Source: Bacteroidetes bacterium GWB2_32_14 | GTDB lineage: Bacteria > Bacteroidota > Bacteroidia > Bacteroidales > UBA12077 | Reading direction: 5' to 3' | NCBI GenBank assembly: GCA_001768235.1 | Contig: MENK01000003.1 | Span: forward strand, 1 to 64,000 | Length of the DNA stretch: 64,000 nt | Shown here: positions 5,101 to 20,968 of the stretch, piece after piece | Layout: every line of letters begins with the position of its first letter | Position numbering within the stretch: position 1 is the stretch's first letter | Translations under genes and position numbers: made by a program | Notes under the pieces: model-generated | What the model was told of the DNA's origin: nothing | Seen by the model: only the letters and a program-made list of their open reading frames with translations | Databases searched by the model: none

Positions 5101-6750
5101 ACCACCATCACCTTCTCCAACCAGGTTTAATATGATATTAAAAGTTATACCTATTTTAATATCGGAAACCTGTTTAAATCCAATATTTTCAATACTAACA
5201 GGGAAGCCGGCTGTTGATTGTTGAAGTGCTTCAGAACCAAAAGAAAAAGCTCCTACTTTAACGTATGGACTAGTTGATGCAATCTCTAAAGCTTCAAAAG
5301 TAATATCGGCAAGTGAAACACCATTATCTGAAAGACTAATACTCGCACTTCCATTTAAAACTGCGCGTGGTTTAAACTCTCTATCTTCGATAATTACATC
5401 AATAAACGAAGTTTGCTTTAAAACAACATCGGCTGCCCAAACATCAAATTTTACATCTTTGGTAGTTGAAATTGTAAATGCATAGTTCCCTCCCATATCA
5501 ATCAAAGCAGTATATTCCAGAGGATTATCTGCTGATAATATTGGTACCTGCACTTTACCGTTAAAACCAGCTTTAGTAAGCTGATTTGCTACCAGCTCAA
5601 CTCCAATTTTATCGAGAGAAAAGGCCCAGTTTCCCATTTTGCCTTTATCAAGAGATATTATGTTTTCTGCAATTATCTTTCCGGAAAATCCCTGATCATC
5701 AATAATCAGATCGTATGCATTAAAAGACACGCTGTCAAATTCTTTTGGAAGTCTTATTGATACATAACCTAAATAAAAACCGCGCCATAATTTTTCATTT
5801 CCGGGAAGAAAATAGGTTGAAGTATATCCTTGCGGAAATTTCATTCCTGCAAAATTAGCATGATCGCTAAAATCAAAAACAGCATCTTTAACTGTAAAAC
5901 CTACTCCATCAAAACCTTTAACTTGAAAAGCAGGCAAACTTAAACTAACTATTAAGTCGTTCCAATCAGCCATTTCTGCTGTAAAACTGCATCTTACTTT
6001 TTCACCATTAATAATGTTTCCATTTGCATCCTCGGGAACAAGAATATCGGCAGAAAATATGATATCTGCTGATATTCCCATTTTTTTAAATCCATTACAA
6101 TCCCAAATTACATATGATGAACCATCACCTTTGATGACCAAATCAATACCATCACCAAATCCAATTTTTACAGAAGAAACAAGCTCCAAACGAATATCTT
6201 CTTTTAAACCTCCTCCAAACGATAATGGAATATTTAATCCTCTGAATGATAATTTCTTACCGCTTTGAGGAATTTTGAATGACATATATGCATTAAAATA
6301 TGCACCATCGGATTTAAAACTAACTTGATCAATTAATATAATATATTCAAGTCCACCTAATTCCGTTTTTATACCAACAGGTAAACTTATAATTGCAGCT
6401 GAATCAAGTTTGTCAATAAACCGATTTTCACTTTTAACCAGTTCAAGCAATTCATTTGTTACTTCCTCATAGTAAACTGATGAATCGGAAGGAGAAACTG
6501 CCAGTTCATTATTAAACGAAAATGTGCTATTCGATTGCATTTCCTCGCCAACTACTTCAGCAAAAGTAAATTCACGAAACTGATTGATTGCATATTCATC
6601 GAATTGCTTTTCAACTTCCTTGTTATCAGTTAATTCAAAATTATTATCTATATTGTTTTCGTATATGCAATTATTATCTGCACATACATACGAGTTGAAA
6701 CAAAGAATAAAAAAACATAGTGTTGCACCTGCAGATAGATATAGCCTCAT
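2191..6750 (-). CDS. Giant secreted protein of unknown function (1519 aa)
   Basis: The protein has an N-terminal signal peptide (MRLYLSAGATLCFFILCF, cleavage near the following CAD) and no other obvious membrane helix. The rest reads as alternating beta strands with many glycines, consistent with a very long beta-rich extracellular or periplasmic fold. A short proline run (SPPPP) lies near residue 860, and the segment around 1060-1250 looks Ig-like. The C-terminus, ending in NITNNL, is not a T9SS sorting domain. I do not recognise a family or a catalytic motif. The gene is the first of a two-gene operon with the fibronectin-III protein. The 587 nt upstream of its start are shared with the divergent Hyf-like operon. 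Possible roles include an adhesin, a surface scaffold or part of an export apparatus; none can be chosen from sequence alone. Confidence 0.7.
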   Translation of the reverse strand: MRLYLSAGATLCFFILCFNSYVCADNNCIYENNIDNNFELTDNKEVEKQFDEYAINQFREFTFAEVVGEEMQSNSTFSFNNELAVSPSDSSVYYEEVTNELLELVKSENRFIDKLDSAAIISLPVGIKTELGGLEYIILIDQVSFKSDGAYFNAYMSFKIPQSGKKLSFRGLNIPLSFGGGLKEDIRLELVSSVKIGFGDGIDLVIKGDGSSYVIWDCNGFKKMGISADIIFSADILVPEDANGNIINGEKVRCSFTAEMADWNDLIVSLSLPAFQVKGFDGVGFTVKDAVFDFSDHANFAGMKFPQGYTSTYFLPGNEKLWRGFYLGYVSIRLPKEFDSVSFNAYDLIIDDQGFSGKIIAENIISLDKGKMGNWAFSLDKIGVELVANQLTKAGFNGKVQVPILSADNPLEYTALIDMGGNYAFTISTTKDVKFDVWAADVVLKQTSFIDVIIEDREFKPRAVLNGSASISLSDNGVSLADITFEALEIASTSPYVKVGAFSFGSEALQQSTAGFPVSIENIGFKQVSDIKIGITFNIILNLVGEGDGGFGAECGLMIVGEMGEFDGIQSWKYSYLELTKIAVNIDGGAYKVAGSLEFFKNDQYYGNGFKGEATIEIVSMIKIEGMALFGKVNGYRYWYADAMATFKSGIPIGAFALNKFGGGVFHHMRQLDLGEEFGGTLGLTKSNIIYRPDKEILIGIKASVGLILNSSETVFNGDATLEIVFNVGGGLRTIDFLGNANFITPELPGAAQQLVKLQSRIDEMKGGKTPERTTTSSLSAELHINMNFPAKTLHANLKVYVNVAGGIIKGIGPGDLAGESVMHFSPDEWYIHVGSPDNPVGLEVLGILRLESYFMVGDNIPGSPPPPAEVSRILGGIDLNYMGAENELASGRGIAFGARITMDTGDLTFLIFYARFTAGLGFDLMMKDYGDIQCAGRSEELGINGWYANGQAFAYFSGKVGIKVKIFGKTKKYEILDLGMAAVLQAKLPNPLWMRGIVGGYYSLLGGMIKGNCKFEVTIGEECEFVGEGSVLEGIEVISELTPATGQTDIDVFNSPQAVFNMEVDKVFEMVDLDGKLKAFRIRLDHFKLTKGAQEIEVNYKWNTDHTVIALQPVDILPGESSIKAVVQISFEERDRNVWLPVKVGNNVITESMEVTFTTGKAPDYIPLNNVEYCYPILNHYNFYSKEYAKGYIQLKQGQDYLFQTNTDFITKGRYSAVNGSIILFNIIYKQNNEIEYTIPSGMIENTVYSFDLVNIPLQQDAIDKNVSAKSKMVKIDESDNEQDVTIETREVEGEIKNLKEKIIFTSYFRTSYYSTLKQKLDDMFISTGFRRNIHSDVHELGVTLFGKELFEKYETYWTTEITPLVQFEAVLTDNYYKNVINGLIYNPYQSQSTLKINWREPDFDIGIPPVRALYIRQIPFNKTLTDDEISGGYPLGTATEGAFVYNLIWFYANDFLDLQQQAASQWYKGDKKTWYETLMQTIFPIVSSGTYPFDIKYVVPGRNEVSSKYRVNITNNL

Positions 6751-7337: not shown

Positions 7338-9338
7338 ATGGACAATAGTCAATTTCTTATCTTGTCAATATGGGTAACTGTTGCCGGGTGGCTCGCAATA
7401 TATGTTACTCCTGCCCGGTTTAGAGGAAATGTAACCGGCATATTTGTTTTTATAACTGCAATGTTAACTTCTATTCCGGCAATTCATGTGCTTACCTTAA
7501 ATAAAATTGAATTTGCTATTTCCGGCATATCATTAATTGGAAATATACCTGTTCGCATTGATTCATTATCGGCATGGTTTATTCTAATCATAAACTTAAC
7601 AAGTTTAACAGGTGTTGTCTATGGATTAGGATATATGAAGCCGTATGGTGATCAGAAATCAAATCTCACCTTACACTGGATTCAATATTTGCTTTTTCAT
7701 TCGTCAATGCTTTGGGTATGCATGGTTCAAAACAGCATCGTGTTTTTAATTGTATGGGAATTGATGTCGCTTTCATCCTTAATGCTTGTTATATTCGACC
7801 ATCAAAACAGCAAAACACTCAAGGCCGGATTAAATTACCTGGTTCAGATGCATATTGGCGTAGCCATATTAACGGCGGCATTTATATGGGTTTATCTTTC
7901 AACAGGTTCATTGGATTTTGCTGCAATAGCTCAATTCTTTCAAACACATTCAAATATCTGGCTATTCCTGTTGTTTTTTATAGGATTTGGAATTAAAGCA
8001 GGGTTCATTCCATTTCATTCGTGGTTGCCTCATGCACACCCTGCAGCACCGTCGCATATCTCCGGTGTAATGTCGGGTGTTATTGTAAAAGTCGGGATAT
8101 ACGGAATTTTAAGGATGATTACCTTTTTAAGCACTGATTATCTTATTCTTGGAGAATTGATCCTGGGGCTCTCGGTTCTAACAGGGTTGTACGGAATTAT
8201 TAATTCAGCCATTCATCGTGATTTTAAAAAGATGCTGGCCTATTGTACTATCGAAAATATTGGTATTGTTGGCATTGGTTTAGGTTTAGGCCTGATCGGG
8301 TTAGGTAATGGGAATAACATAATGATTATTTTAGGATTTGGCGGGGCATTGCTTCATACCTTAAATCACTCTTTATTCAAATCGTTATTATTCTTCTCAG
8401 CAGGTTCTGTTTACCAGCAAACTCATACCCGTGATATGGAAAAGCTGGGAGGGTTAATACACGCGATGCCTCAAACAGCATTTCTTTTCTTAATTGGCGC
8501 ATTAGCAATTGGCGGATTACCTCCATTTAATGGCTTTGTTTCTGAATTTATTTTGTACAAAGGAATGCTCGAAGGAATAAGCAGTTCAAATATGTATCAT
8601 GTAATACTTATTATCATTTCTTTCGCAGGATTGTCAATTATTGGAGGGCTTTCCATATTGGTATTTACCAAGAGTTTTGGAACCATTTTCCTGGGAACTC
8701 AACGAACCAAACTGCATTCCGAACCTGTTGAAGCATCCTTGTCAATGCGATTACCTCAATATCTTATTATTGGGATTATGTTGCTTATTGGGATTTTCCC
8801 TTCATTCTTTTTTTCTTACACATCGCAAATTGTTATTACTTCTTTCCCGGGTTTGGAAAATATAAATTCAGGCTCTTTAACTCCATTTATAAATAACTTA
8901 TCGTTAGTTGGTATTTATGCAACTGTATTTCTTGTTTTGATTGCGTTGGTTTATTTTACCCGGTTATTACTTAATAAGAAAAACCTCACTCAAACATCAC
9001 CAACCTGGGGATGTGGATACGTGGCACCAAGAGCATCAATGCAATACACGAGCAAGTCGTATTCAAAAACACTCGGCAAATTGCTGGGATTTATAGTAAC
9101 CGAAAAGAAAAAATATACCGAACTTGAATCTTCTGAAATATTCCCTGAAGAAAGAAAACATTCAGCCTATTATGTTGATTTTTTTGAAAACAGGATTATT
9201 GAAAAAATAACAAACCGCTTGCAATATTTCATGAACCTGTTCCAGTTTATTCAGAATGGAAGTACGCAGATGTATATTATTTATGGCTTGTTCTTTATTG
9301 TAATCGTATTTTTGGGTACATTATTTAATTTTATCTGA
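7338..9338 (+). CDS. hyfB: HyfB/NuoL-like antiporter subunit, copy 1
   Basis: A 666-residue polytopic membrane protein of the proton-conducting antiporter family (NuoL/M/N, MrpA/D, HyfB), close to the usual HyfB length of about 670. Visible hallmarks are the essential glutamate in ELMSLSS (about residue 140), the channel lysine in GIKAGFIPFHSWLPHAHP (about 220) and the following HISGVMSGVIVKVGIYGILR segment. The C-terminal TWGCGY..PRASMQYT motif is typical of the HyfB branch. It is the first gene of the seven-gene operon. Its stop overlaps the next start (TGATG), which suggests translational coupling. The product should form part of the ion-pumping arm of a membrane complex related to complex I and group 4 hydrogenases. 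Confidence 0.88.
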   Translation: MDNSQFLILSIWVTVAGWLAIYVTPARFRGNVTGIFVFITAMLTSIPAIHVLTLNKIEFAISGISLIGNIPVRIDSLSAWFILIINLTSLTGVVYGLGYMKPYGDQKSNLTLHWIQYLLFHSSMLWVCMVQNSIVFLIVWELMSLSSLMLVIFDHQNSKTLKAGLNYLVQMHIGVAILTAAFIWVYLSTGSLDFAAIAQFFQTHSNIWLFLLFFIGFGIKAGFIPFHSWLPHAHPAAPSHISGVMSGVIVKVGIYGILRMITFLSTDYLILGELILGLSVLTGLYGIINSAIHRDFKKMLAYCTIENIGIVGIGLGLGLIGLGNGNNIMIILGFGGALLHTLNHSLFKSLLFFSAGSVYQQTHTRDMEKLGGLIHAMPQTAFLFLIGALAIGGLPPFNGFVSEFILYKGMLEGISSSNMYHVILIIISFAGLSIIGGLSILVFTKSFGTIFLGTQRTKLHSEPVEASLSMRLPQYLIIGIMLLIGIFPSFFFSYTSQIVITSFPGLENINSGSLTPFINNLSLVGIYATVFLVLIALVYFTRLLLNKKNLTQTSPTWGCGYVAPRASMQYTSKSYSKTLGKLLGFIVTEKKKYTELESSEIFPEERKHSAYYVDFFENRIIEKITNRLQYFMNLFQFIQNGSTQMYIIYGLFFIVIVFLGTLFNFI

Positions 9339-11365
9339 TGAATCTTGTATATGCTATACTAATTGTGGTTTTTTTATCATTAGCGATAATACCATTCTTA
9401 AATTCAAAAATGAAAGGTATTCTTACCCTGGCATCTGTAATTAGTGTCAGCATACTTAGCAGTATTCCTGCAATTAAAGCATTAACAGGAGAATCTACAG
9501 AGCTACTTTTATCGGGTACAATAGTTACTTCGACTATTCCTGTCAGAATTGATGCGCTTTCGGCCTGGTTTATCTTAACCATAAATTTTACATTTATTAC
9601 AGGGATAATTTATGGGATAAGCTACATGCAAGCCTATAAAAAGCAAAAAGCAAATTTATCATTGCATTGGATAAGTTATATTTTGGCTCATACTGCTCTT
9701 GTTGCTATTTGTTCAGTTCAAAACAGTCTTGTATTTCTTATTGCATGGGAAATTATGGCATTGTCGGCTTTTCTTCTCGTGATTTTTGAAAGCTATAGTG
9801 CTAAAACCTTAAAGGCCGGGATAAACTATTTAATACAGTCGCATATCAGCATACTCTTGCTAACATTGGGTTTTATATGGATTTTTTATAAAACTGGTTC
9901 ATTTGATTTTAATGCCATTCGCGATTTTGCAAATTCAACAACTGCTTTTGGTGGCTTGGTATTAATGATTTGTTTTTTTATGGGATTTGCAATCAAGGCA
10001 GGATTTGTGCCATTTCACACATGGCTTCCTTTAGCTCACCCTGCTGCCCCCGCACATATTTCAGGAATAATGTCGGGAGTAATTATCAAGATTGGAATTT
10101 ATGGAATTCTTAGAATGCTTTTTTTAATCAGAACCGATTACCTTGCAATTGGTTATTTTATTTTATTCATTTCTATAGTTTCGGGAGTATATGGAGTAAT
10201 GCTGGCTATTTTGCAACACAATTTGAAAAGGCTATTGGCTTATCATAGTATCGAGAATATCGGGATTATTGGTATTGGAATCGGTTTGGGATGTATTGGT
10301 TTAGGTACAGAGAATAACCTGCTTTCAATTCTTGGATTTTCGGGTGCATTATTGCATACGTTGAACCATTCGTTGTTTAAATCACTTTTATTTTATAGTG
10401 CAGGAAATATTTACCAATCGGTACATACAGTAAACATTGAACAATTAGGTGGTGTTGGCAAAAATATGAAACAAACAGCTTTTTTATTTTTGATCGCTTC
10501 GCTTGCAATATGTGGATTGCCTCCCTTTAATGGCTTTGTTTCTGAATTTATTATTTACAGTGGCATTTTTAACGGGATACACGATGCCACGTTTCTAAAT
10601 CTTATGTTCCTTATATTCTCGATTTTTGGATTAGTACTTATTGGCGGATTAGCAATTCTTTGTTTTACAAAAGCATTTGGAACAATTTTTCTGGGTTCAC
10701 CAAGACATTCATTCCACCAGAAACCAAAAGAAAGTAATTTTGCAAAACGAATTCCCATGTACTTAATTGTTGTTTTAATTATTACCATTGGTATTTTTCC
10801 AACTGCATTCTTAAAAGCCTTGTCACTACCAGTTTCTCAATTGAGTGGAATTTCAACCGCCGATTCTATTCCTTTAGAAACATCTGTCTCAAAAACAATT
10901 TCGCAAATTGGTTATGTTTCCTTGCTATTTATAGTCATTGCAGGGGTGATATTTTTTATACGAAAGAAATTTACAGTTTCAAATTTATATAAAACCTCTT
11001 CAACCTGGGGATGTGGTTATACGGGACAAGTAAGCAAGATGCAATATACTGCAAGCTCGTTTGTGAGAAATTACAGGAAACTTGCCGAACCGGTATTATA
11101 TGTTCACAAGTTTAAAAAAGAAGTAAATGGAATTTTCCCCGGCAAAGCATGGCACGAAACTCATCCGAAAGATAAAATTGAAGAACTATTTATTAGTTCT
11201 CCAATAAGGCAATTCAAGCATTTTTTAAACTTTTTTGGTAAATTACAAAGTGGAAACCCACAAATGTACATTCTATATGGAACAGTATTTATAACCCTGT
11301 TAATTGCTGTACCTCAAGTTTATGAAATAATAAAAACATTATTAAAATTTTTAAATAATTTATAA
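9338..11365 (+). CDS. hyfB: HyfB/NuoL-like antiporter subunit, copy 2
   Basis: A 675-residue paralogue of the preceding protein, clearly homologous along its whole length. It shares WEIMALSAFLLVIFE (glutamate near 137), GFAIKAGFVPFHTWLPLAHP (lysine near 220), LLHTLNHSLFKSLLFYSAG and the TWGCGYTG..SKMQYT terminal motif. The two copies differ at many positions at both DNA and protein level, so this is an old tandem duplication, not an assembly artefact. In Escherichia coli Hyf the corresponding position is filled by the shorter HyfD; here a second full-length HyfB seems to take that place. The start overlaps the previous stop, and HyfC follows after 3 nt. Confidence 0.88.
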   Translation: MNLVYAILIVVFLSLAIIPFLNSKMKGILTLASVISVSILSSIPAIKALTGESTELLLSGTIVTSTIPVRIDALSAWFILTINFTFITGIIYGISYMQAYKKQKANLSLHWISYILAHTALVAICSVQNSLVFLIAWEIMALSAFLLVIFESYSAKTLKAGINYLIQSHISILLLTLGFIWIFYKTGSFDFNAIRDFANSTTAFGGLVLMICFFMGFAIKAGFVPFHTWLPLAHPAAPAHISGIMSGVIIKIGIYGILRMLFLIRTDYLAIGYFILFISIVSGVYGVMLAILQHNLKRLLAYHSIENIGIIGIGIGLGCIGLGTENNLLSILGFSGALLHTLNHSLFKSLLFYSAGNIYQSVHTVNIEQLGGVGKNMKQTAFLFLIASLAICGLPPFNGFVSEFIIYSGIFNGIHDATFLNLMFLIFSIFGLVLIGGLAILCFTKAFGTIFLGSPRHSFHQKPKESNFAKRIPMYLIVVLIITIGIFPTAFLKALSLPVSQLSGISTADSIPLETSVSKTISQIGYVSLLFIVIAGVIFFIRKKFTVSNLYKTSSTWGCGYTGQVSKMQYTASSFVRNYRKLAEPVLYVHKFKKEVNGIFPGKAWHETHPKDKIEELFISSPIRQFKHFLNFFGKLQSGNPQMYILYGTVFITLLIAVPQVYEIIKTLLKFLNNL

Positions 11366-11368
11366 GAT

Positions 11369-12274
11369 ATGATAAGCCTTGCATTAATCATTTTGGTAAG
11401 CTTTTTTTTCACGGGTATTGTTATCCGCACAAAAAGTATTGCTTCGGGACGTAAAGGCCCGGGAATATTTCAGCCCATGAAAGATATTTTCCGATTGTTT
11501 AAAAAAGGTGCTGTTTATAGCGAAACAACAAGCTTTATTTTTCAGGTTGCCCCAAGTATCTATTTTGCTTCGGTTGTAATGGCTATAATGGTTATCCCGT
11601 TTGGTCAGTACAAAGGAATCATTTCTTTTGAAGGTGATTTTGTATTCTTTGCCTATGTTTTAGCTATCGGTAAGTTTTTCAGCATTATATCAGCACTTGA
11701 TACAGGAAGCAGTTTTGAAGGCATGGGTGCAAGCCGCGAAGCACTTTACTCCATGTTAGCAGAACCCGCGTTCTTCCTGCTTATGGGTTCCCTTGCCCTG
11801 CTAACAGGTTATACATCATTTCACGAAATATTTATGACATTCCATTTTGGTTCATATATTTCTTATGCTTTGGGTGTTATGGCAACATTCGTGCTGGTTA
11901 TGATATGTATGATTGAAAATAGCCGCATGCCTGTTGATGATCCAAAAACTCACCTGGAGCTTACCATGATCCATGAAGTAATGATTCTCGATAACAGCGG
12001 TTTCGACCTGGGATTAATTTTACACGCTACAAACCTTAAATTTGCCATGTATGGTGCTTTAATTGCTAATCTTTATTTTGGCGATTTGCCACTTTATTAT
12101 TCCATACCAATTTTCCTTGTAATTCAAACTCTTTTTGCTGTTTCTGTTGGTTTGCTCGAATCCTTCACTGCACGATACAGAATGAGTCATAATGCTCAGT
12201 TTATTTTTACATTGTCATCCGTATCCCTGCTTATATTTTTTGGAGTGCTGATGATGCTGGGTAAACTGATTTAA
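11369..12274 (+). CDS. hyfC: HyfC/NuoH-like membrane subunit
   Basis: A 301-residue membrane protein of the complex I subunit 1 family (NuoH, HycD, HyfC, EchB), which anchors the hydrophilic domain to the membrane and lines the entry to the quinone or ion channel. Diagnostic segments are KGPGIFQPMKDIFRLFKK near the N-terminus, GSSFEGMGASREALYSMLAEP (about residues 113-133) and ENSRMPVDDPKTHLELTMIHE (about 183-205), with its conserved acidic residues. Length and motifs are normal for HyfC. The gene follows the second HyfB by 3 nt and precedes HyfE by 24 nt. Confidence 0.9.
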   Translation: MISLALIILVSFFFTGIVIRTKSIASGRKGPGIFQPMKDIFRLFKKGAVYSETTSFIFQVAPSIYFASVVMAIMVIPFGQYKGIISFEGDFVFFAYVLAIGKFFSIISALDTGSSFEGMGASREALYSMLAEPAFFLLMGSLALLTGYTSFHEIFMTFHFGSYISYALGVMATFVLVMICMIENSRMPVDDPKTHLELTMIHEVMILDNSGFDLGLILHATNLKFAMYGALIANLYFGDLPLYYSIPIFLVIQTLFAVSVGLLESFTARYRMSHNAQFIFTLSSVSLLIFFGVLMMLGKLI

Positions 12275-12298
12275 TATAACGAACTAAAAAAAACAACT

Positions 12299-12928
12299 AT
12301 GATAAATGTTTTGCTTATAACTTTTGTAATAACACTGCTTTATATTTCCATTGCAAACCGCTTGTTAACTTACGTTAAAATATTGGCATTTCAGGGGATT
12401 TTGCTTTTTGGGGTAGCATTTATTGAATTAATCGAAATCAACCCGGTAAACCTCGCGTTTATCCTGCTCGAAACGATTATTGTTAAAACAGTTGCAATAC
12501 CAATGTTTTTAACCCATGTAATAAAGAAAAACAGGATAACCCGGGAAGCAGAGCCTTTTGTACCCAATTTCGTATCTCTTATTATTGTTACCATTATTAT
12601 CATTGTTACATTCCTTATCTCGAATAGCATTGCCGATACTCATTTAGATAAGATATACTTTGTAGTAGCCTTGGTAGCCCTGTTTAGCGGGCTATATATT
12701 ATCATCTCCCGAAAAAAAATTATAACCCATGTTATTGCTTATGTGATAATTGAAAACGGGGTGTTTATTCTGTCGCTGGCTGTTGGTAACGAAATGCCCA
12801 TGCTGGTAAACCTTGGAATATTACTCGATATTTTTGTCAGTGTATTCCTTTTAGGTATTTTCATTAATAAAGTGGGCGATGTGGTAAAAGATATTGATAT
12901 TACTCAATTAAGTAATTTAAAAGATTAA
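12299..12928 (+). CDS. hyfE: HyfE-like membrane subunit (NuoK-related)
   Basis: A 209-residue very hydrophobic protein with six or seven predicted helices, matching the length of HyfE (about 215). Its C-terminal part, including HVIAYVIIENGVFILSLAVG, is related to NuoK/MrpC, whose glutamates take part in ion translocation; the ENG glutamate is present. Its position between HyfC and HyfF is the usual Hyf order. No soluble domain or unusual insertion is visible. Confidence 0.85.
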   Translation: MINVLLITFVITLLYISIANRLLTYVKILAFQGILLFGVAFIELIEINPVNLAFILLETIIVKTVAIPMFLTHVIKKNRITREAEPFVPNFVSLIIVTIIIIVTFLISNSIADTHLDKIYFVVALVALFSGLYIIISRKKIITHVIAYVIIENGVFILSLAVGNEMPMLVNLGILLDIFVSVFLLGIFINKVGDVVKDIDITQLSNLKD

Positions 12929-12939
12929 TTTGAATTAAA

Positions 12940-14367
12940 ATGATTGGAATCTATTTAACAGCAGCTGTTTTAATAAGCGGTTTAATTTTTGTCAATAGAA
13001 AAAGGCAGGTAAATAAACTTCTTGTAACTCTGTTTATTGGAGTGCAATGGGCATTTACTATTTATGAATATTATCATAAGGGCATTGTTGAGTTAAACTA
13101 TTTTAAACCTGATGCATTAGCTATTTTGTTACTTGCAACTCTCAGCATTATTAGTATTCCTGCCTTGTTTCATAGTTACGATTATATTTATCCCGAAAAA
13201 GATAATCCTAAAACAAGATCAATCTATTATGCAGCAATGACAATTCTTATTGCTGCTATTGGGGCAGCCTATCTTTCAAATCATATTGCCGTAACCTGGA
13301 TTTTTATTGAGATTACAACCCTGAGTGCATCAGCATTGATTTTTCATCGCAGAAACAGTGGTTCACTCGAGGCAACATGGAAATATATATTTGTTTGCTC
13401 CATCAGTTTAACCTTTGTTTTTATAGGAATTTTATTTTTAAGTATTGCATTAGGCCATAGCGGAGAACAAGGCCTCTATTTCGATGCTCTTGTAAACCAG
13501 GCAGCAAATCTGAATACCTTCTGGTTTAAACTTGCATTTGTATTTATATTCGTTGGATTTACAGCTAAACTCGGGTTAGTTCCCATGTACACAGCTGGCA
13601 TTGATGCTAAAGATAAAGCCCCAACACCAGCTGCCGCCTTATTCTCAAGTGTTTTAATGAATGTTGGTTTTGTTGGGATTTTCAGGATATATGCAGCAGT
13701 GGCTCACTCATCAATACATGGCTGGGCAAATCATGTGATTATGATAGCCGCATTCCTTTCGGTATTTATTGCAACTGTTTACGTATTAAAGGTTAAGAAT
13801 ATCAAACGAATGCTTGCCTATTCAAGCATTGAACACATGGGATTAGTTATGTTGGGGCTGGCAGCAGGCGGAATTGGTTATTACGCGGTTGTATTACATG
13901 TTATACTTCATGCTTTTGCAAAATCGGCTCTTTTCTTCCAAATAGGACAAGTTTATAATATTTACAAGAGTAAAAACTTATATTACCTGGGGAGTTATTT
14001 TAAATACAACCTGCCGGGTGCAATTATCATATTAATAGCTTTTATTTGTGTAACAGCAATGCCTCCGTCAGGACTTTTCATAAGTGAGTTTTATATTTTT
14101 ACAGCATTGTTTAAAAGCGGGTATTTATTTGTACTAATTCCTGTACTTATATTATTAACAATGATAATCTGGGCCATGGGCAAAAATTTCTTAAAACTAT
14201 TATTTACACCACCAGTAAATTTTGATGAAACTAAGATTGAAAAAGTAAGCCATCTCGAAACTTTTTCACAGTTTATATTGCTTGGATTGGTTATTTATCT
14301 TGGGATAAATCCTCCGGCAAAATTTGTTAATTTAATTAATGAAGCAGTAAAAAATTTAATCTTCTGA
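12940..14367 (+). CDS. hyfF: HyfF/NuoN-like antiporter subunit
   Basis: A 475-residue polytopic protein of the proton-conducting antiporter family, a little shorter than E. coli HyfF (about 526). It keeps the key glutamate in WIFIEITTLSAS (about residue 122) and the lysine in GFTAKLGLVPMYTAG (about 209). The motifs KRMLAYSSIEHMGLVMLG and LHAFAKSALFFQIGQ are also typical. With the two HyfB copies it gives the complex three antiporter-like subunits, the same number as complex I. The stop is separated from the next start by a single base. Confidence 0.88.
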   Translation: MIGIYLTAAVLISGLIFVNRKRQVNKLLVTLFIGVQWAFTIYEYYHKGIVELNYFKPDALAILLLATLSIISIPALFHSYDYIYPEKDNPKTRSIYYAAMTILIAAIGAAYLSNHIAVTWIFIEITTLSASALIFHRRNSGSLEATWKYIFVCSISLTFVFIGILFLSIALGHSGEQGLYFDALVNQAANLNTFWFKLAFVFIFVGFTAKLGLVPMYTAGIDAKDKAPTPAAALFSSVLMNVGFVGIFRIYAAVAHSSIHGWANHVIMIAAFLSVFIATVYVLKVKNIKRMLAYSSIEHMGLVMLGLAAGGIGYYAVVLHVILHAFAKSALFFQIGQVYNIYKSKNLYYLGSYFKYNLPGAIIILIAFICVTAMPPSGLFISEFYIFTALFKSGYLFVLIPVLILLTMIIWAMGKNFLKLLFTPPVNFDETKIEKVSHLETFSQFILLGLVIYLGINPPAKFVNLINEAVKNLIF

Positions 14368-14368
14368 T

Positions 14369-15868
14369 ATGAATTATTCAGTACTAAAAAATAATCAGCG
14401 TGTACCGGTTAATTCAATACCGGTAATCAGGTACGAAGATTTTATGGACACGATTGTTTCCACCCTGATGAAGGACAAAAACAATCATTGTGTGAATTAT
14501 TTTGGTTATCATCACGAAAGCAAAATCAAACTCATTTGCTGCATTGCCGATGATGCGAATCATTGTATCTATGTTCTCTCTTCCCTGGTTGAGCAAACAG
14601 CTATTTTGCCTTCTTTTTCGGCTCATAACCTTTCCTTTGAAAAGTATGAACGAGAAATACATGAGAACTTTGATATCGGTTACTCAGACCACCCCTGGCT
14701 TAAACCGGTAAGATATCCATTTCATGCTGCTGATAAAAGTAAAACAATATCCAATTATCCCTTTTATCAAATTGAAAGTGAAGAATTGCACGAGGTTGGT
14801 GTTGGCCCTATACATGCGGGAGTAATAGAACCCGGACATTTTCGGTTTATTTGCAACGGAGAACAAATACTTCATCTCGAAATCCAACTCGGTTATCAGC
14901 ACAGGGGAATTGAGCAGCTATTCCTTGAAAAGAAAAAGCTGTTACAAAGAACTACACTTGCCGAAAACATTACCGGTGATACAGTTGTCGGCCATACAGG
15001 TACATTTGCAAAACTTTGGGAGAGTTTATGTGGTTATACTGCAACTCCGGAATTAGAATTTGCAAGAACACTGGCATTGGAACACGAACGTATTGCAATT
15101 CACACAGGTGATTTAAGCGCCATTTGTACCGATATAGCATACCAGCTGGGTAGCTCGGTATTTGGAAGATTAAGAACTCCTGTTATTAATTATTTCCAGA
15201 TTTGGGGAGGAAATCGTTTGTCGAAAGGGTTAATCCGTCCGGGAAAAACAAATTTCCCATTTACAAAAGAACTTGCTAAAAAATGGATTGAAGTATTCGA
15301 TGCATACGAACCCGATTTTACAGAAATGGTTAAACAAATGTTTGATCTGCCCTCTGCATTAGCCCGGTTAGAAAAAACAGGTGTTGTTTTAACAGGTGTA
15401 GCTGAATCTATTGGAATGGTTGGAATGGCAGCACGTGCCAGCGGAGTAAACAGAGACGTACGCCTTTCGCACCCTGATAATTTATATAAACAACTTAATC
15501 ATAAACCAATAGTAAAACATCATGGCGATGTTTATTCAAGAACACAAATAAGAAAAGAAGAGATTTTTCAATCTATAGGATATATCAAACAATTGTTAAC
15601 AGATATTCCTGAAAATATGAAATATACAAATGAATTAAATACTCCGGAACCCGATTCTTTTGTTATTTCCTTAACCGAAGGCTGGCGTGGTGAAATTTGC
15701 CATTGTGCAATTACAGGCAACAAGGGCGAACTCATTGTTTACAAGATTAAAGATCCTTCGTTCCATAACTGGCTTGCATTGGCCCTGGCCGTTCGTAACA
15801 ATGAAATCTCTGATTTCCCGATTTGTAATAAGAGTTTTAATTTGTCGTATTGTGGACACGATTTATAA
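14369..15868 (+). CDS. hyfG: HyfG/NuoCD-like large subunit without NiFe ligands
   Basis: A 499-residue soluble subunit in which a NuoC-like N-terminal domain (about residues 15-115, ending in SDHPWLKPVRYP) is fused to a NuoD/hydrogenase large-subunit domain. The segment GVGPIHAGVIEPGHFRF (144-160), followed by EIQLGYQHRGIE, identifies the family. The N-terminal CGxC motif of NiFe hydrogenases is absent: the matching segment is ENITGDTVVGHTG (199-211). The C-terminal DPCxxC motif is replaced by FPICNKSFNLSYCGHDL. Two cysteines occur there (486 and 495) but not in the required spacing. The protein therefore cannot bind a NiFe centre in the known way and belongs with the energy-converting hydrogenase-related (Ehr) complexes. 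Any quinone or other substrate is unknown. Confidence 0.85.
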   Translation: MNYSVLKNNQRVPVNSIPVIRYEDFMDTIVSTLMKDKNNHCVNYFGYHHESKIKLICCIADDANHCIYVLSSLVEQTAILPSFSAHNLSFEKYEREIHENFDIGYSDHPWLKPVRYPFHAADKSKTISNYPFYQIESEELHEVGVGPIHAGVIEPGHFRFICNGEQILHLEIQLGYQHRGIEQLFLEKKKLLQRTTLAENITGDTVVGHTGTFAKLWESLCGYTATPELEFARTLALEHERIAIHTGDLSAICTDIAYQLGSSVFGRLRTPVINYFQIWGGNRLSKGLIRPGKTNFPFTKELAKKWIEVFDAYEPDFTEMVKQMFDLPSALARLEKTGVVLTGVAESIGMVGMAARASGVNRDVRLSHPDNLYKQLNHKPIVKHHGDVYSRTQIRKEEIFQSIGYIKQLLTDIPENMKYTNELNTPEPDSFVISLTEGWRGEICHCAITGNKGELIVYKIKDPSFHNWLALALAVRNNEISDFPICNKSFNLSYCGHDL

Positions 15869-15885
15869 CATTGAACTAAAAGCAT

Positions 15886-16638
15886 ATGTTAAATAATTTA
15901 AAAATAATGTATCATCAGGGGAAGCAATACATTCCTGATGTTACAACTGTAGAAGTACCAGGCATATTCAGAGGAAGGCCAATAATCAGCGATGTCAGAA
16001 TAAATACCGAAGAGCTAATTCAACTATGCCCTACTAATGCAATAAATAGAGAACCAATAAGTATAGATTTGGGAAAATGTACTTTTTGTGGTGAATGTGC
16101 ATTTGCATTTCCCGAAAAGATACGTTTTACAAAAGATTACAAACTCTCAACCAATGAGCGTAATCGGTTAATTGTTGTCGAAGGACAAGACAAGCCGATA
16201 GACTTAAATCCTGATTTAATTCGTAAAGAAATTCACAAACTTTTTGGTGGTTCACTTAAACTACGGCAAGTTTCAGCTGCCGGAGACAACAGTTGTGAAT
16301 GGGAATTGAATGCAGCAGGAAATGTTAATTTCGACATGGGCAGGTTTGGTATTGAGTTTGTCGCTTCGCCACGCCATGCCGACGGGATTGTTATAACAGG
16401 CCCTGTTTCAGAAAACATGGCTGAACCTCTTCAAATTTGTTACGATGCTACTCCCGATCCTAAACTAATTATACTTGCAGGAACAGATGCAATAAGCGGT
16501 GGAATTTTTGATGGCGCCCCTGCTTTAAACAGGTCGTTCCTGAATAAATATAAAATTGACTTATATGTTGCAGGAAATCCGGTACATCCTTTGAGTTTTA
16601 TAAATGGAATTCTGCAACTGATAAGAAAAATCAAATAA
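15886..16638 (+). CDS. Ferredoxin-NuoB (HyfH-HyfI-like) fusion with depleted cluster ligands
   Basis: A 250-residue fusion of an N-terminal ferredoxin-like domain (about 30-85) and a NuoB/hydrogenase small-subunit domain (about 125-250). The ferredoxin part keeps Cys48 (LCP) and Cys65, Cys68 and Cys71 (CTFCGEC). The usual fourth cysteine after the latter motif is missing (AFAFP), so only one [4Fe-4S] cluster can form. In the small-subunit domain the family motif CxxC-E is DNSCEWE (Asp134, Cys137), the GTCAISGG motif is GTDAISGG (Asp201), and the PGCPPHP motif is AGNPVHP (Asn231). Three of the four proximal-cluster cysteines are therefore gone while the surrounding motifs are intact. It is the last gene of the operon and ends just before a strong terminator. 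Confidence 0.85.
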   Translation: MLNNLKIMYHQGKQYIPDVTTVEVPGIFRGRPIISDVRINTEELIQLCPTNAINREPISIDLGKCTFCGECAFAFPEKIRFTKDYKLSTNERNRLIVVEGQDKPIDLNPDLIRKEIHKLFGGSLKLRQVSAAGDNSCEWELNAAGNVNFDMGRFGIEFVASPRHADGIVITGPVSENMAEPLQICYDATPDPKLIILAGTDAISGGIFDGAPALNRSFLNKYKIDLYVAGNPVHPLSFINGILQLIRKIK

Positions 16639-16711: not shown

Positions 16712-19700
16712 CTACAACCATTTAACCAGGCAAAAATCCTGACGGTGAGGTAAATTTGGGTTTTTCGCATACACCCTGATTCCGGCATCGAATACCCCGG
16801 GCTCTGTTGGTGTAATATCCAGCGAATATGTAACCAACGAGTTTTCGATATTCATTATTTCAAAATCCTGTGTATGTTTAATCGAGACCCGCTCACTATC
16901 AACGGGTTCGGCAACTACCAGTTCAACACCAATATCATCAGGAGATAAGCCATTCAATTTAATTTCGACAGTAGCACTATATTTTTTTCCAATAACAATC
17001 GGTTCTTTCGAAACATCGAATTGTTTAATAGATAATATCTCGAGACTTTCCCAGCAACGAGATACTTTCTTCTTCCATGCTGCAATATCCTTAGCCATTT
17101 GGAAATCATCAGCCATCATTTTTTTACCTCTTTCTGCTAACTTATAGTAAAACTTATTTTCGTACTCGGTTAACATGCGGTGAGTTGTGAAGTTTGATGC
17201 TACTTTTGCAATTGAGTTTTTAATAAAACCCACCCATTTCTCGGGTAAACCGCTTTTATTACGCTGGTAATATGCAGGAACAATTTCATTTTCAATGATA
17301 TTGTAAATGGTTTCCGCATCAAGCTCATCCTGGTAATCGTTGTTTCCGTATGTTTGCTCTTCGGGTAATGCCCATCCTGCATCGGGAGAATATCCTTCTA
17401 CCCACCAGCCATCAAGAACGCTAAAATGTAAAACACCATTCATTACAGCTTTCATACCACTTGTACCCGATGCTTCCATTGGCCTTGTAGGATTATTAAG
17501 CCAAATATCAACACCCTGAACCATGTTTCGGGCAAGCTCCATATCGTAATTTTGAAGAAAAATTACTTTCCCTATAAATTCCGGCTGTTTTGATACTTCA
17601 ACAATACGTTTTATCATTTCCTGTCCTGCAGTATCGTTCGGGTGAGCTTTCCCTGCAAAAATAAACTGGATAGGTTTGTCGGGATTATTTACAATTTTAC
17701 TTAATCGTTCAATATTCCGGAATAATAAATATGCTCTTTTATAAGTAGCAAACCTGCGTGCAAATCCAATGGTAAGAACATTTTCACGAAGGTTTTCACG
17801 AATCTCAATAATCTGTTTCGGGTTATCGTATTTCATCGTTTCCGGCTCGAGCAATCGTGTTCGCAGGAAATTAATTAAATTCTTTTTTTGTTGTTGTCTT
17901 AGTTCCCATATTTTACTGTCGGCAACATCATAAACTTTGTCCCAGCAATCTTTCGTATATTCGTGATCTGCAAACTCTTTACCCGGTTCCATGTGGCATA
18001 AAATTTCCCAACCGGCAGAAGCCCAGGTCGGAAAATGAACACCATTGGTAACGTAACCAATATGCAATTCATCAGGGAAATACCCCGGCCATAAATTTTT
18101 AAAAATATCCCTGCTCACCTTGCCATGTAACATGCTTACCCCGTTTACTTCCTGCGACATATTCGCTGCAAGAAAACTCATTGAAAATTTTTCGTTCGGG
18201 TTATTAAAGTTTATTTTACCCAAATCTATGAACTGATCCCATGAAATTTTCAACCTGTCGGGATAATGGGCAATATATGTGCGAAGCAGGTTTTCCGGAA
18301 ATGCATCATGGCCAGCGGGTACAGGCGTGTGAGTGGTAAAAAGTGATGTTGACCTAACAACTTCAAGCGATTCAGTAAATGATAATTTCTCGTTTTTTAT
18401 TAAACTGTTAATTCTCTCTATTCCAATAAACGCCGCATGGCCTTCATTACAATGGAAAACATCGGGGTTAATACCCAGTGCTTTTAATGCCCGTATTCCT
18501 CCAACGCCAAGCAGGAGCTCTTGCTTTAGCCTGTTTTCAAGGTTTCCCCCATATAGATGATGTGTAATGCTTCTGTCTTCAGGTAAATTATCCTCAAAAT
18601 CGGTGTCAAGTAAATACAGGTTATTTCTGCCTATTTGGATTTTCCAGATTCGTGCATACAAATTTCTACCCGGGAAAACAACTGTAATTGTTAACCAGTT
18701 TCCATTGTCATCGCGAACAGGAATAGCAGGTATCTTCGAAAAATCCTGAGGTTCATATTCGGCAATTTGCATTCCTGTTGAAGAAATCTGCTGTGAAAAA
18801 TAACCATACCTGTACAAAAGCCCAATACCTGTTATATCTGTATTTTTATCACTTGCTTCTTTTAAATAATCTCCGGCTAAAATACCCAGTCCACCCGAAT
18901 AAATTTTTAATGAACTATGTATTCCAAATTCCATCGAGAAATAGGCAACCCTGGGCCCTGTTTGCTTTTCTTTTTTGGAAATGTAATGTTGAAAATGCTC
19001 GTAAACACTATTGAGATTATTCAAAAAATTATCATCTTTCTCCAGTTCCTGGTATTTACGAAATGAGATTTTTTCTAAAAAAAGAAACGCATTATATCCA
19101 CTTTCTTTCCATAATGCAGGGTCTATACTTTCAAAAAGTTGAATTGCATCGTGATTCCAGCACCACCAATAATTTCGTGAAATCTGATCGAGAGCTTCGA
19201 GTTTCTTTGGTATATTTTTCTGAATCATTAACCTGATCCAGGTAGGTTTATTTACTGCCACAATTTGTTCAATATAAGGTAATTGTTCCTGCCTGTCCTG
19301 ATCAAGAAGTTTATCGATACGTTCATCAACTTTGCTTAATGCAATATGAAATGCTTTATAATAATAACTTATTAAATTCTCCCATAAAGCAATTTTTGAA
19401 ACATCAACAGCATTTTGCTTAATACCATCACGCTGTTGAGTATCTATTTCGGTAAAACTTTTTATTTGTTTTGAAAGATTTTCAATTACAAATACATCAT
19501 TCGTATCGGTACGTTCAATAATTCCGATACCTGGATGAATATCTTTATAATTGTTCTTTACCCACAATCCAAAACCGGCCAGCGATGTTGTTATTGTAGG
19601 AACTTCAAAAGCTAAACTTTCAAGCGGAGTATATCCCCAGGGTTCGTAATATGACGGGAATACTGTTAAATCAAGCCCTATCAACATCTGATAATAGGTT

Positions 19701-20968
19701 TTATTAATAATACCATCGTTACCATCGAGATAGCAAGGTACAAAAAACAACTTTACTTTATCGGTTTCGTTATTGTTGATACCAAGCTCCTTAGCACGTT
19801 TGAGAATTGGATCGTAATCGGGATCAAGCAAATAGTGTGTTATGTGCTTATTGCTTAATACAATAATATTTTCGCTGTCCTTGTCCATAAGGTTATGAAA
19901 GACATCTTTTCGCGGGCCATGATGGCCTGCAGGAACCATAATAAAAGCAAGGATATTTTTTTTCAGTTTTTCGTCTTTGTTTAAAATGCCTAAAGCTTCA
20001 ATAAAAACATCAATTCCCTTGTTTTTAAACTCGTACCTTCCTCCCATTCCAATAAAAATGCTATCTTTAGGAACTTCGCATGTTAAAAGGGCTTCGGCTA
20101 CTTCGTAAAATTTTATCCTGGCTTCCACCCTTTCGAGTTTAAACTCGTCACCTATAGGAACAAAGCTGTTTTCAAAACCATTTGGAGTAACCATGTCCAC
20201 TTTTTTGGAAAGAAATGCTGCACATTCTTTTGAAGTAATGTCGCTAACTGTTGTAAAACAATCGGCATTAGCTGCTGATAACTTCTCGAGCGATTGTTTT
20301 GACACTACATTAAATTCGAGTGCTTTAATATCGGGATTATATTTTTCGATATTATCATAGAGAGGGTATCCATTCCCGGCAATAGATCTTCCAAGTACCG
20401 TGGCATGAGTGGTAAACACTGTAGCAACTTGTGGTAAAGCATAATCTAAATACAATAAGCCTGTACCAGTCATCCATTCGTGAAAATGAGCAACAATTTT
20501 ATGGCCACGGCTTAAATAAAAACGGGTATAACTCTCGATAACCTTACCTGCTGCATAACCAAATAACGCAGGTTCAATATAATCCCACTGGCCGGCTAAT
20601 GAATCCAGCTTGTATTTCTCCCAAAAAATCTTAAAGATTTCATCTTTTTGCGAGATAAATGTTGAAAAATCTACCAATACTGCAATCGGGTTACCAATAA
20701 TATTCCATCGTCCAACTTTAATTCTTAACCCTTCGCTTGCCGATCTTTCTCTCCATGATTTAAGCATTTGCTTGTCTTCAATAAATTCAGGATGTTCAGA
20801 AGTATGACGTAAAATATCGGGACCGATAAATATGTGATTATTTTTGAGAACTTTTGAAAGTGTAATGGCTTTGGTTGAAATAACGGTATGTATTCCGCCT
20901 ACTTTATTGCATACCTCCCAGCTAACTTCAAAAAGATAATCAGGGACATTTGTAATTTCATTCTGCAT
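16712..20968 (-). CDS. GT3 glycogen synthase fused to GT35 alpha-glucan phosphorylase
   Basis: A 1418-residue bifunctional protein. Residues 1 to about 560 form a GT3 glycogen synthase of the eukaryote-like type, with VGGIHTVISTKA near 24, HFHEWMTG near 162, FTTHATVLGR near 187 and FPSYYEPWGYTPLES near 440. From about 580 comes a DUF3417-type domain (YWWCWNHDA), then a GT35 phosphorylase from about 668 (SMEFGIHSSLKIYSGGLGIL). Its pyridoxal-phosphate lysine sits in GTSGMKA (about 1173). A beta-rich tail closes the protein. The synthase adds glucose from a nucleotide sugar to glycogen; the phosphorylase removes it as glucose-1-phosphate. Both active-site motif sets look intact. It is the last gene of the glycogen operon, 8 nt after the GH57 gene. 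Confidence 0.9.
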   Translation of the reverse strand: MQNEITNVPDYLFEVSWEVCNKVGGIHTVISTKAITLSKVLKNNHIFIGPDILRHTSEHPEFIEDKQMLKSWRERSASEGLRIKVGRWNIIGNPIAVLVDFSTFISQKDEIFKIFWEKYKLDSLAGQWDYIEPALFGYAAGKVIESYTRFYLSRGHKIVAHFHEWMTGTGLLYLDYALPQVATVFTTHATVLGRSIAGNGYPLYDNIEKYNPDIKALEFNVVSKQSLEKLSAANADCFTTVSDITSKECAAFLSKKVDMVTPNGFENSFVPIGDEFKLERVEARIKFYEVAEALLTCEVPKDSIFIGMGGRYEFKNKGIDVFIEALGILNKDEKLKKNILAFIMVPAGHHGPRKDVFHNLMDKDSENIIVLSNKHITHYLLDPDYDPILKRAKELGINNNETDKVKLFFVPCYLDGNDGIINKTYYQMLIGLDLTVFPSYYEPWGYTPLESLAFEVPTITTSLAGFGLWVKNNYKDIHPGIGIIERTDTNDVFVIENLSKQIKSFTEIDTQQRDGIKQNAVDVSKIALWENLISYYYKAFHIALSKVDERIDKLLDQDRQEQLPYIEQIVAVNKPTWIRLMIQKNIPKKLEALDQISRNYWWCWNHDAIQLFESIDPALWKESGYNAFLFLEKISFRKYQELEKDDNFLNNLNSVYEHFQHYISKKEKQTGPRVAYFSMEFGIHSSLKIYSGGLGILAGDYLKEASDKNTDITGIGLLYRYGYFSQQISSTGMQIAEYEPQDFSKIPAIPVRDDNGNWLTITVVFPGRNLYARIWKIQIGRNNLYLLDTDFEDNLPEDRSITHHLYGGNLENRLKQELLLGVGGIRALKALGINPDVFHCNEGHAAFIGIERINSLIKNEKLSFTESLEVVRSTSLFTTHTPVPAGHDAFPENLLRTYIAHYPDRLKISWDQFIDLGKINFNNPNEKFSMSFLAANMSQEVNGVSMLHGKVSRDIFKNLWPGYFPDELHIGYVTNGVHFPTWASAGWEILCHMEPGKEFADHEYTKDCWDKVYDVADSKIWELRQQQKKNLINFLRTRLLEPETMKYDNPKQIIEIRENLRENVLTIGFARRFATYKRAYLLFRNIERLSKIVNNPDKPIQFIFAGKAHPNDTAGQEMIKRIVEVSKQPEFIGKVIFLQNYDMELARNMVQGVDIWLNNPTRPMEASGTSGMKAVMNGVLHFSVLDGWWVEGYSPDAGWALPEEQTYGNNDYQDELDAETIYNIIENEIVPAYYQRNKSGLPEKWVGFIKNSIAKVASNFTTHRMLTEYENKFYYKLAERGKKMMADDFQMAKDIAAWKKKVSRCWESLEILSIKQFDVSKEPIVIGKKYSATVEIKLNGLSPDDIGVELVVAEPVDSERVSIKHTQDFEIMNIENSLVTYSLDITPTEPGVFDAGIRVYAKNPNLPHRQDFCLVKWL

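Follow-up and report, generated by a model that had tools for sequence, protein, structure and literature searches.

An Ehr-type relative of complex I in Bacteroidota with a conserved Asp/x/Asp/Asn site at the proximal cluster position: sequence evidence suggesting a membrane pump no longer run by electron flow

The operon and its genomic setting

The window analysed here, by which we mean the whole stretch of 64,000 nucleotides of contig MENK01000003.1 from Bacteroidetes bacterium GWB2_32_14, contains at 7338-16638 an operon for two HyfB-like subunits, one each of HyfC-, HyfE-, HyfF- and HyfG/NuoCD-like subunits, and a fused small subunit:

7338..9338, + strand: HyfB-like antiporter-type membrane subunit, copy 1, 666 aa (PF00361, E 4.7e-52)
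9338..11365, + strand: HyfB-like antiporter-type membrane subunit, copy 2, 675 aa (PF00361, E 3.3e-53)
11369..12274, + strand: HyfC/NuoH-like membrane subunit, 301 aa (PF00146, E 1.1e-31; best solved relative FHL subunit 4, 7z0s_D)
12299..12928, + strand: HyfE/NuoK-like membrane subunit, 209 aa (NF008556, hydrogenase 4 membrane subunit, E 2.1e-16, under its curated cut-off; PF00420 below cut-off)
12940..14367, + strand: HyfF/NuoN-like antiporter-type subunit, 475 aa (PF00361, E 1.5e-43)
14369..15868, + strand: HyfG/NuoCD-like large subunit, 499 aa, without the four Ni-Fe cysteines (PF00346, E 1.4e-30; PF00329)
15886..16638, + strand: fused ferredoxin and NuoB-like subunit, 250 aa (PF01058, E 1.6e-18; PF00037)

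The closest solved large subunit is 7z0s_E of formate hydrogenlyase (FHL). Alignment to FHL HycE places the first CxxC motif of the Ni-Fe site at T202/T205 and the second at S493/G496, both of the latter extrapolated beyond the end of the alignment, and the position that we take to be that of the quinone tyrosine (Nqo4 Tyr87) aligns to a Gly. Since the large subunit is without all four Ni-Fe cysteines, the operon encodes an Ehr complex as defined in passages of PMC6349859 and PMC10284858, that is, a set of group-4-hydrogenase/complex I-type subunits whose large subunit has no Ni-Fe ligands.

In the window's genome, which is 98.95% complete, the gene at 15886-16638 is the only PF01058 gene and the three PF00361 genes of the operon are the only ones of their kind; judged by these two families, the genome has no sign of a second complex I, group 4 hydrogenase or Mrp antiporter, and it has four matches to Rnf/Nqr and one to cytochrome bd. 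When neighbouring genes were clustered, no family was shared by more than 6 of the 79 loci, in a scan that covered 3 kb or more on the downstream side of 59 of 78 loci and on the upstream side of only 9 of 70, and in which an upstream donor gene could be missed. The 6-locus family, with a helix-turn-helix start, includes loci L224-L227, whose small subunits have the four proximal-cluster cysteines (four-Cys).

Several features of the neighbourhoods are recorded here for their own sake. On the minus strand at 16712-20968 lies the gene of a 1418-aa protein that joins a glycogen-synthase part to an alpha-glucan phosphorylase part (PF05693, PF11897, PF00343), and beyond it are genes for a GH57 protein, a glycosyltransferase and a glycogen debranching enzyme, such that a glycogen cluster adjoins the operon; the glycogen-synthase/phosphorylase gene adjoins the operon in one other locus only (L031) of the set. 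Also on the minus strand, 2191-6750 encodes a 1519-aa protein whose start is signal-like and which matches no Pfam family at E 0.001. Plasmid 3 of Variovorax sp. PBL-E5 (L123) carries tandem Ehr operons, one of the fused type and one without the ferredoxin part, both four-Cys, with a gene for a fused MFS/spermidine synthase between them, another after the second, and a broken third copy (L141). Plasmids of Mycobacterium branderi (L125, cluster-less) and Burkholderia multivorans (L128, four-Cys) share an odd gene order, in which a HyfB-like gene follows that of the small subunit, and both have a DUF190 gene nearby.

Cluster ligands of the small subunit

The 250-aa translation of 15886-16638 contains the motifs DNSCEWE, GTDAISGG and AGNPVHP, and alignment to MbhJ of MBH, subunit 7 of FHL and mouse complex I shows that the four Cys positions of the proximal cluster are occupied by D134, C137, D201 and N231. 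The ligand positions are listed below, with counts from 133 sequences of all sources and, where a second count is given, from 64 order-level copies, both sets being described in the next section.

16027..16098, + strand: Cys48, Cys65, Cys68 and Cys71 (codons at 16027, 16078, 16087, 16096), predicted ligands of the one remaining [4Fe-4S] site, N6b-like; 131/133
16285..16287, + strand: Asp134, codon GAC, first proximal Cys position; D or E in 133/133 and 64/64
16294..16296, + strand: Cys137, codon TGT, second proximal Cys position, dispensable; Cys in 114/133 and 48/64
16486..16488, + strand: Asp201, codon GAT, third proximal Cys position; D or E in 133/133 and 64/64
16576..16578, + strand: Asn231, codon AAT, fourth proximal Cys position; N in 132/133 and 64/64

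The AF2 model of the small subunit matches MbhJ (6cfw_J) with a Foldseek probability of 1.00, and the fold is that of NuoB/MbhJ; at residues 135-162 the pLDDT is below 50, too weak to read the geometry of the site there.

By the usual pattern of 2[4Fe-4S] ferredoxins, we take C48, C65, C68 and C71 to be the ligands of the second cluster, matching N6b of complex I, which leaves the first (N6a) without ligands. F75 occupies the fourth Cys position of motif 2, and no motif-1 Cys other than C48 is found in the window's ferredoxin part, which can therefore offer at most one [4Fe-4S] site. The two sequences of the 133 in which the four cysteines are incomplete are L222, with its ferredoxin part out of frame, and L099_17740, a rearranged second copy. 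The original prediction, made from the DNA letters, had held that Asp134, Asp201 and Asn231 replace ligands within intact motifs and leave Cys137 alone, had reported the codons at the three changed positions as checked, and had allowed one [4Fe-4S] at most in the ferredoxin part; translation, codons (GAC, GAT, AAT) and structure-based alignments agree with it on the proximal site, and C48/C65/C68/C71, F75 and the lack of a second motif-1 Cys agree with it on the ferredoxin part.

To compare the fates of the two clusters, we used fused proteins having C48 and C65. Among those without the proximal four-Cys set, 0 of 134 retain two or all three of the remaining motif-1 cysteines, and a complete first cluster is present in 13 of the 17 with the proximal set intact (Fisher p 1e-15, a statistic that ignores relatedness). 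As judged from these ligand counts, the entry (N6a-like) and exit (N2) clusters are lost together and the middle (N6b-like) site stays.

Conservation of the D/x/D/N site

A profile built from ten small subunits, including six with four Cys, was run against an order-level sample of 295 genomes (E <= 1e-48), of which 67 matched with 68 gene copies, every copy being read. The D/x/D/N type, named for its residues at the four positions, accounts for 64 of the 68, the four-Cys type for three and D/C/D/D for one. In all 64 D/x/D/N copies, sites 134 and 201 are acidic and site 231 is Asn, and 48 of them have Cys137. The wider set comprises 133 non-identical D/x/D/N sequences from all sources, the window's own included, the others being 52-87% identical to it. 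Here site 134 is D in 131 and E in 2, site 201 likewise D in 131 and E in 2, and site 231 N in 132 and Y in 1, and site 137 holds Cys in 114, Ala in 7, Gly in 4, Asn in 3, Ser in 2, Val in 2 and Thr in 1. Since 61 of the 133 came from a peptide-pattern search in which GDNSCEWE was one of six patterns, this set is biased; the order-level sample is free of that bias and yields the same result.

On a tree of 100 rows, 50 of them D/x/D/N, calculated with the ligand columns excluded, site 137 changed at least 16 times among the D/x/D/N rows, and sites 134, 201 and 231 changed 1, 2 and 1 times. Ranked by entropy among the 250 positions, site 137 stands at 136, and sites 134, 201 and 231 at 55, 58 and 48. 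By both measures, the remaining Cys137 behaves as an average residue and the acids behave as functional residues. At site 134 the Asp codons in use are GAC in 65 and GAT in 66 cases, and the use of both indicates that it is the residue that is kept and not the DNA. The same residues are found in named isolates, including Niastella vici, Flavihumibacter profundi and Chryseolinea serpens. Comparison with orthologues had been put forward with the original prediction as a way to refute it; the losses recur in close relatives, and homologues with four Cys belong only to lineages further away (49-61% identity across the fused protein). Such four-Cys fused relatives are present in Bacteroidota (L112, 61% identical; L115 and L117, 49%) and elsewhere (L155, in the phylum of genome G354, and L123, on the Variovorax plasmid).

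Repeated loss of the four-Cys set

Loss of the proximal cysteines is not confined to the D/x/D/N group. The small subunit of genome G036 reads D/C/D/D and has no ferredoxin part, and those on the plasmids of M. branderi (N/D/D/A) and Allomeiothermus silvanus (T/D/E/S) have no Cys at any of the four positions. Every loss lineage has an acid at site 3 plus an acid at site 1 or 2; a change from Cys to Asp takes two base changes, and is thus not the easiest drift. The tree of NuoB alone has four changes of the four-Cys set.

We used AU tests to ask whether the loss lineages could be joined; 9 gapped or fragment rows were left out of the trees, and the groups tested were partly named after the trees were seen. 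With the small subunit, joining G036 or M. branderi to the D/x/D/N group was rejected (p 0.008 and p 0.004, respectively), and neither A. silvanus with the D/x/D/N group (p 0.113) nor a single clade of G036, M. branderi and A. silvanus (p 0.198) was rejected. With the large and small subunits together, that single clade was rejected (p 3e-5), as was A. silvanus with the D/x/D/N group (p 4e-7), and G036 with A. silvanus was not (p 0.106). Considered together, the small-subunit and joint results indicate, as far as such trees can, that the four-Cys set has been lost independently at least three times. In the joint free tree, four-Cys rows (L229/L230 and L231) fall among the D/x/D/N rows and six changes are needed, and a single D/x/D/N clade is not rejected (p 0.087); a single origin of this group is therefore not certain. 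We also observed that genome G036 (L013/L221, L152) contains, beside its D/C/D/D Ehr operon without the ferredoxin part, a fragment of a D/x/D/N small subunit.

Large-subunit cysteines and the membrane arm

Differential conservation shows that certain cysteines of the large subunit are enriched in the cluster-less group, namely C444 (126/129), C446 (110/129) and C253 (121/129); among four-Cys fused relatives C444 occurs in 3 of 14 and C446 in 2 of 14. In 2 of the 129 cluster-less sequences C137, C444 and C446 are all missing. Over the whole large subunit (14369-15868), the enriched cysteines are C41, C58, C253, C444 and C446.

The residues of the membrane arm were counted in the relatives after setting aside 40 loci in which the small-subunit motif was unreadable to the script. 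In HyfB copy 1, Glu141 of TM5, Lys220 of TM7, Lys251 of TM8 and Glu403 of TM12 are kept in 34-35 of 35 cluster-less relatives, and in copy 2 Glu138, Lys220, Lys251 and Glu403 are kept in 53 of 53; their roles we assign on the basis of work on complex I and Mrp. All 60 cluster-less operons keep Glu124 of TM5, Lys210 of TM7 and Glu383 of TM12 of HyfF and E132, E183, D190, E197 and E203 of HyfC. The TM8 position of HyfF is Asn241 in 57 of 60 cluster-less operons and Asn also in 11 of 15 four-Cys operons; being found in both groups, it is not tied to cluster loss. The pattern of conservation indicates that the ion path stays under selection although the electron wire is cut.

Proposed uncoupling of the complex from electron flow

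That the electron wire is cut is well supported. The original prediction had suggested that the electron path is incomplete, and the conserved loss of the N2 site together with loss of the entry cluster, kept by selection, bears this out; its further suggestion, that the arm is run by non-redox means, is the best reading of the path loss and the conserved ion path, to the extent that sequences alone can tell. Our preferred reading, which we hold at about even odds, is that the Ehr complex encoded at 7338-16638 is no longer an electron-driven pump, and hence redox-uncoupled. As to its transport role, the complex would probably be a gradient-driven or gated ion translocator. Extended beyond the window, our tentative proposal, to which we give slightly less than even chances, is that a widespread subclass of the complex I family has become redox-independent several times, with the wire cut at both ends, N2 turned into a dicarboxylate that acts as a charge surrogate or as a proton or cation switch, the intact membrane arm serving as a gated or secondary ion translocator, and the [4Fe-4S] possibly a sensor.

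The steps of this proposal may be set out as follows. The proximal N2-type site has turned into a conserved Asp/x/Asp/Asn site, at which probably no Fe-S cluster forms. Without N2, the gap between the middle cluster and the substrate cavity is, we assume, about twice the normal step, which would be too slow for turnover. Electron relays require gaps under about 14 A, according to a passage on FHL in PMC9474812. The middle cluster, cut off on both sides, would then allow no through-flow of electrons at useful rates. Oxidised [4Fe-4S](Cys)4 carries a charge of about -2, which the two carboxylates may replace, unless they bind a proton or cation. In both MBS and complex I, as described in part of PMC7684303, three loops link the proximal cluster to the membrane arm. 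Given these loops and the equal charge, we propose that the dicarboxylate site keeps or switches the interface loops that couple to the membrane arm, and that ions follow a gradient or a gated path. In the least certain step, an existing gradient would power ion movement, either by Mrp-like secondary antiport or through a gated proton path. Mrp-type extra subunits carry Na+ in MBH and MBS, and none is among the Pfam matches of the operon, so that Na+/H+ antiport is a guess. The remaining [4Fe-4S] may be structural, or a redox or oxygen sensor. Counting against the reading as a whole, C444, C446 and C253 of the large subunit might bind something near the old site, and HyfF of both groups has Asn at the TM8 position where Lys would be expected.

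Other explanations have to be weighed against the redox-uncoupled reading. D134, D201 and N231 might hold one metal ion (Fe, Zn, Mn, Mg or Ca), structural or catalytic, in place of the cluster; we consider this unlikely, for although two nearly invariant carboxylates and an amide are a common ligand set for hard metals and acids recur in the independent losses, site 4 varies by lineage (N, D, A, S) and the sequences contain no additional conserved His pointing to the site. It is less likely still that electrons leave the middle cluster for another acceptor, either a relocated cofactor or a thiol pair formed by C444 and C446 (GEICHC), beside the Arg whose complex I counterpart faces N2. The enrichment of both cysteines in the cluster-less group and the retention of C48/65/68/71 speak for such a route, but the entry cluster is lost, two of the 129 sequences have none of C137, C444 and C446, and G036, M. 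branderi and A. silvanus are without such a Cys pair.

A novel Fe-S cluster with Asp, Asn and Cys ligands at the old N2 site, which the original prediction had offered as an alternative, is very improbable because its only Cys is a dispensable residue: Cys137 is missing in 19 of 133 sequences, its site having undergone at least 16 changes with the acids and Asn kept, and in the M. branderi and A. silvanus lineages all four positions are without Cys. Fe-S clusters with a single Asp ligand are known and count for it, as do the intact motifs around the ligands. The proximal cluster of MBS also counts in its favour, since part of PMC7684303 describes it as having three Cys and being able to be catalytic. 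Gene decay, or an error of sequencing or assembly, of which the loss of three metal ligands would be the expected look in a single genome, is ruled out by the order-level and 133-sequence counts and has next to no probability, given that the frame is open, the operon is full, the same residues recur across 64 of the 68 order-level copies as well as in named isolates, and both Asp codons are used at site 134.

Our searches of open-licence papers listed no report of N2-less Ehr complexes; Marreiros et al. 2013, outside that scope, could mention Cys losses. The function of Ehr is described as unknown in a passage of PMC10284858, and the Geobacter Ehr as never investigated in one of PMC7894505. 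A role in pH homeostasis, suggested for one Ehr complex in part of PMC6688271, would fit a cluster-less translocator, and the link to formate dehydrogenase suggested for Geobacter Ehr in a passage of PMC7894505 would not fit the cluster-less form. Our results suggest that many Bacteroidota have a relative of complex I whose membrane pump looks intact and is no longer run by electron flow. How the reduction of N2 is converted into ion movement is a long-standing question in complex I, and natural complexes without N2 and the entry cluster, with the ion path kept and with four-Cys near relatives, make it testable whether the site contributes charge, structure or electrons. If this is true, Ehr complexes would gain a function class, and redox-independence, if shown, would make the finding more than a variant of a known complex type.

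Comparison with known systems

With respiratory complex I the operon shares the homologous core of NuoB, NuoCD, NuoH, NuoK and NuoL/M/N, but it is without the NADH module, N2, N6a and the tandem-Cys motif; complex I is recognised by an N2 with tandem Cys and by an NADH or other input module, and the genome's single PF01058 gene is the one described here. Mrp antiporters and DabAB-type systems have PF00361 antiporter-like subunits that operate without a redox module. Unlike Mrp, which is defined by a MrpA-G set without a hydrophilic arm, the window's operon retains the genes of the whole hydrophilic arm and shows no Mrp-type small subunits among its Pfam matches.

Among hydrogenases, the E. coli formate hydrogenlyase/hydrogenase-4 systems (Hyc/Hyf) supply the closest names (HyfB, HyfC, HyfE, HyfF) as well as the closest solved large subunit, whereas the window's operon has no Ni-Fe site, proximal cluster or formate dehydrogenase; the four Ni-Fe cysteines and the proximal four-Cys cluster of a group 4 [NiFe] hydrogenase are both absent. 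The closest solved small subunit is MbhJ of Pyrococcus MBH. Pyrococcus MBS, as described in part of PMC7684303, has likewise lost the Ni-Fe ligands, and its proximal cluster is altered, but it keeps three proximal Cys, that cluster and three clusters in total, whereas in the window's complex at most one cluster is predicted and at most one Cys stands at the four positions, which differs from the three-Cys proximal cluster of a sulfane reductase.

Among the close matches are the Ehr complexes of Geobacter (EhrABCDLS), comammox Nitrospira and Margulisbacteria, with which the window's operon shares the subunit set, encoded in one operon (PF00361 three times, PF00146, a weak PF00420, PF00346/PF00329, and PF01058 with PF00037), and a large subunit without Ni-Fe cysteines. 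The other Ehr small subunits compared have a four-Cys proximal [4Fe-4S] site, which is usual and, in the passages cited, not stated as defining; the window's operon instead has D134/C137/D201/N231, a D/x/D/N site, and its entry ferredoxin cluster is gone.
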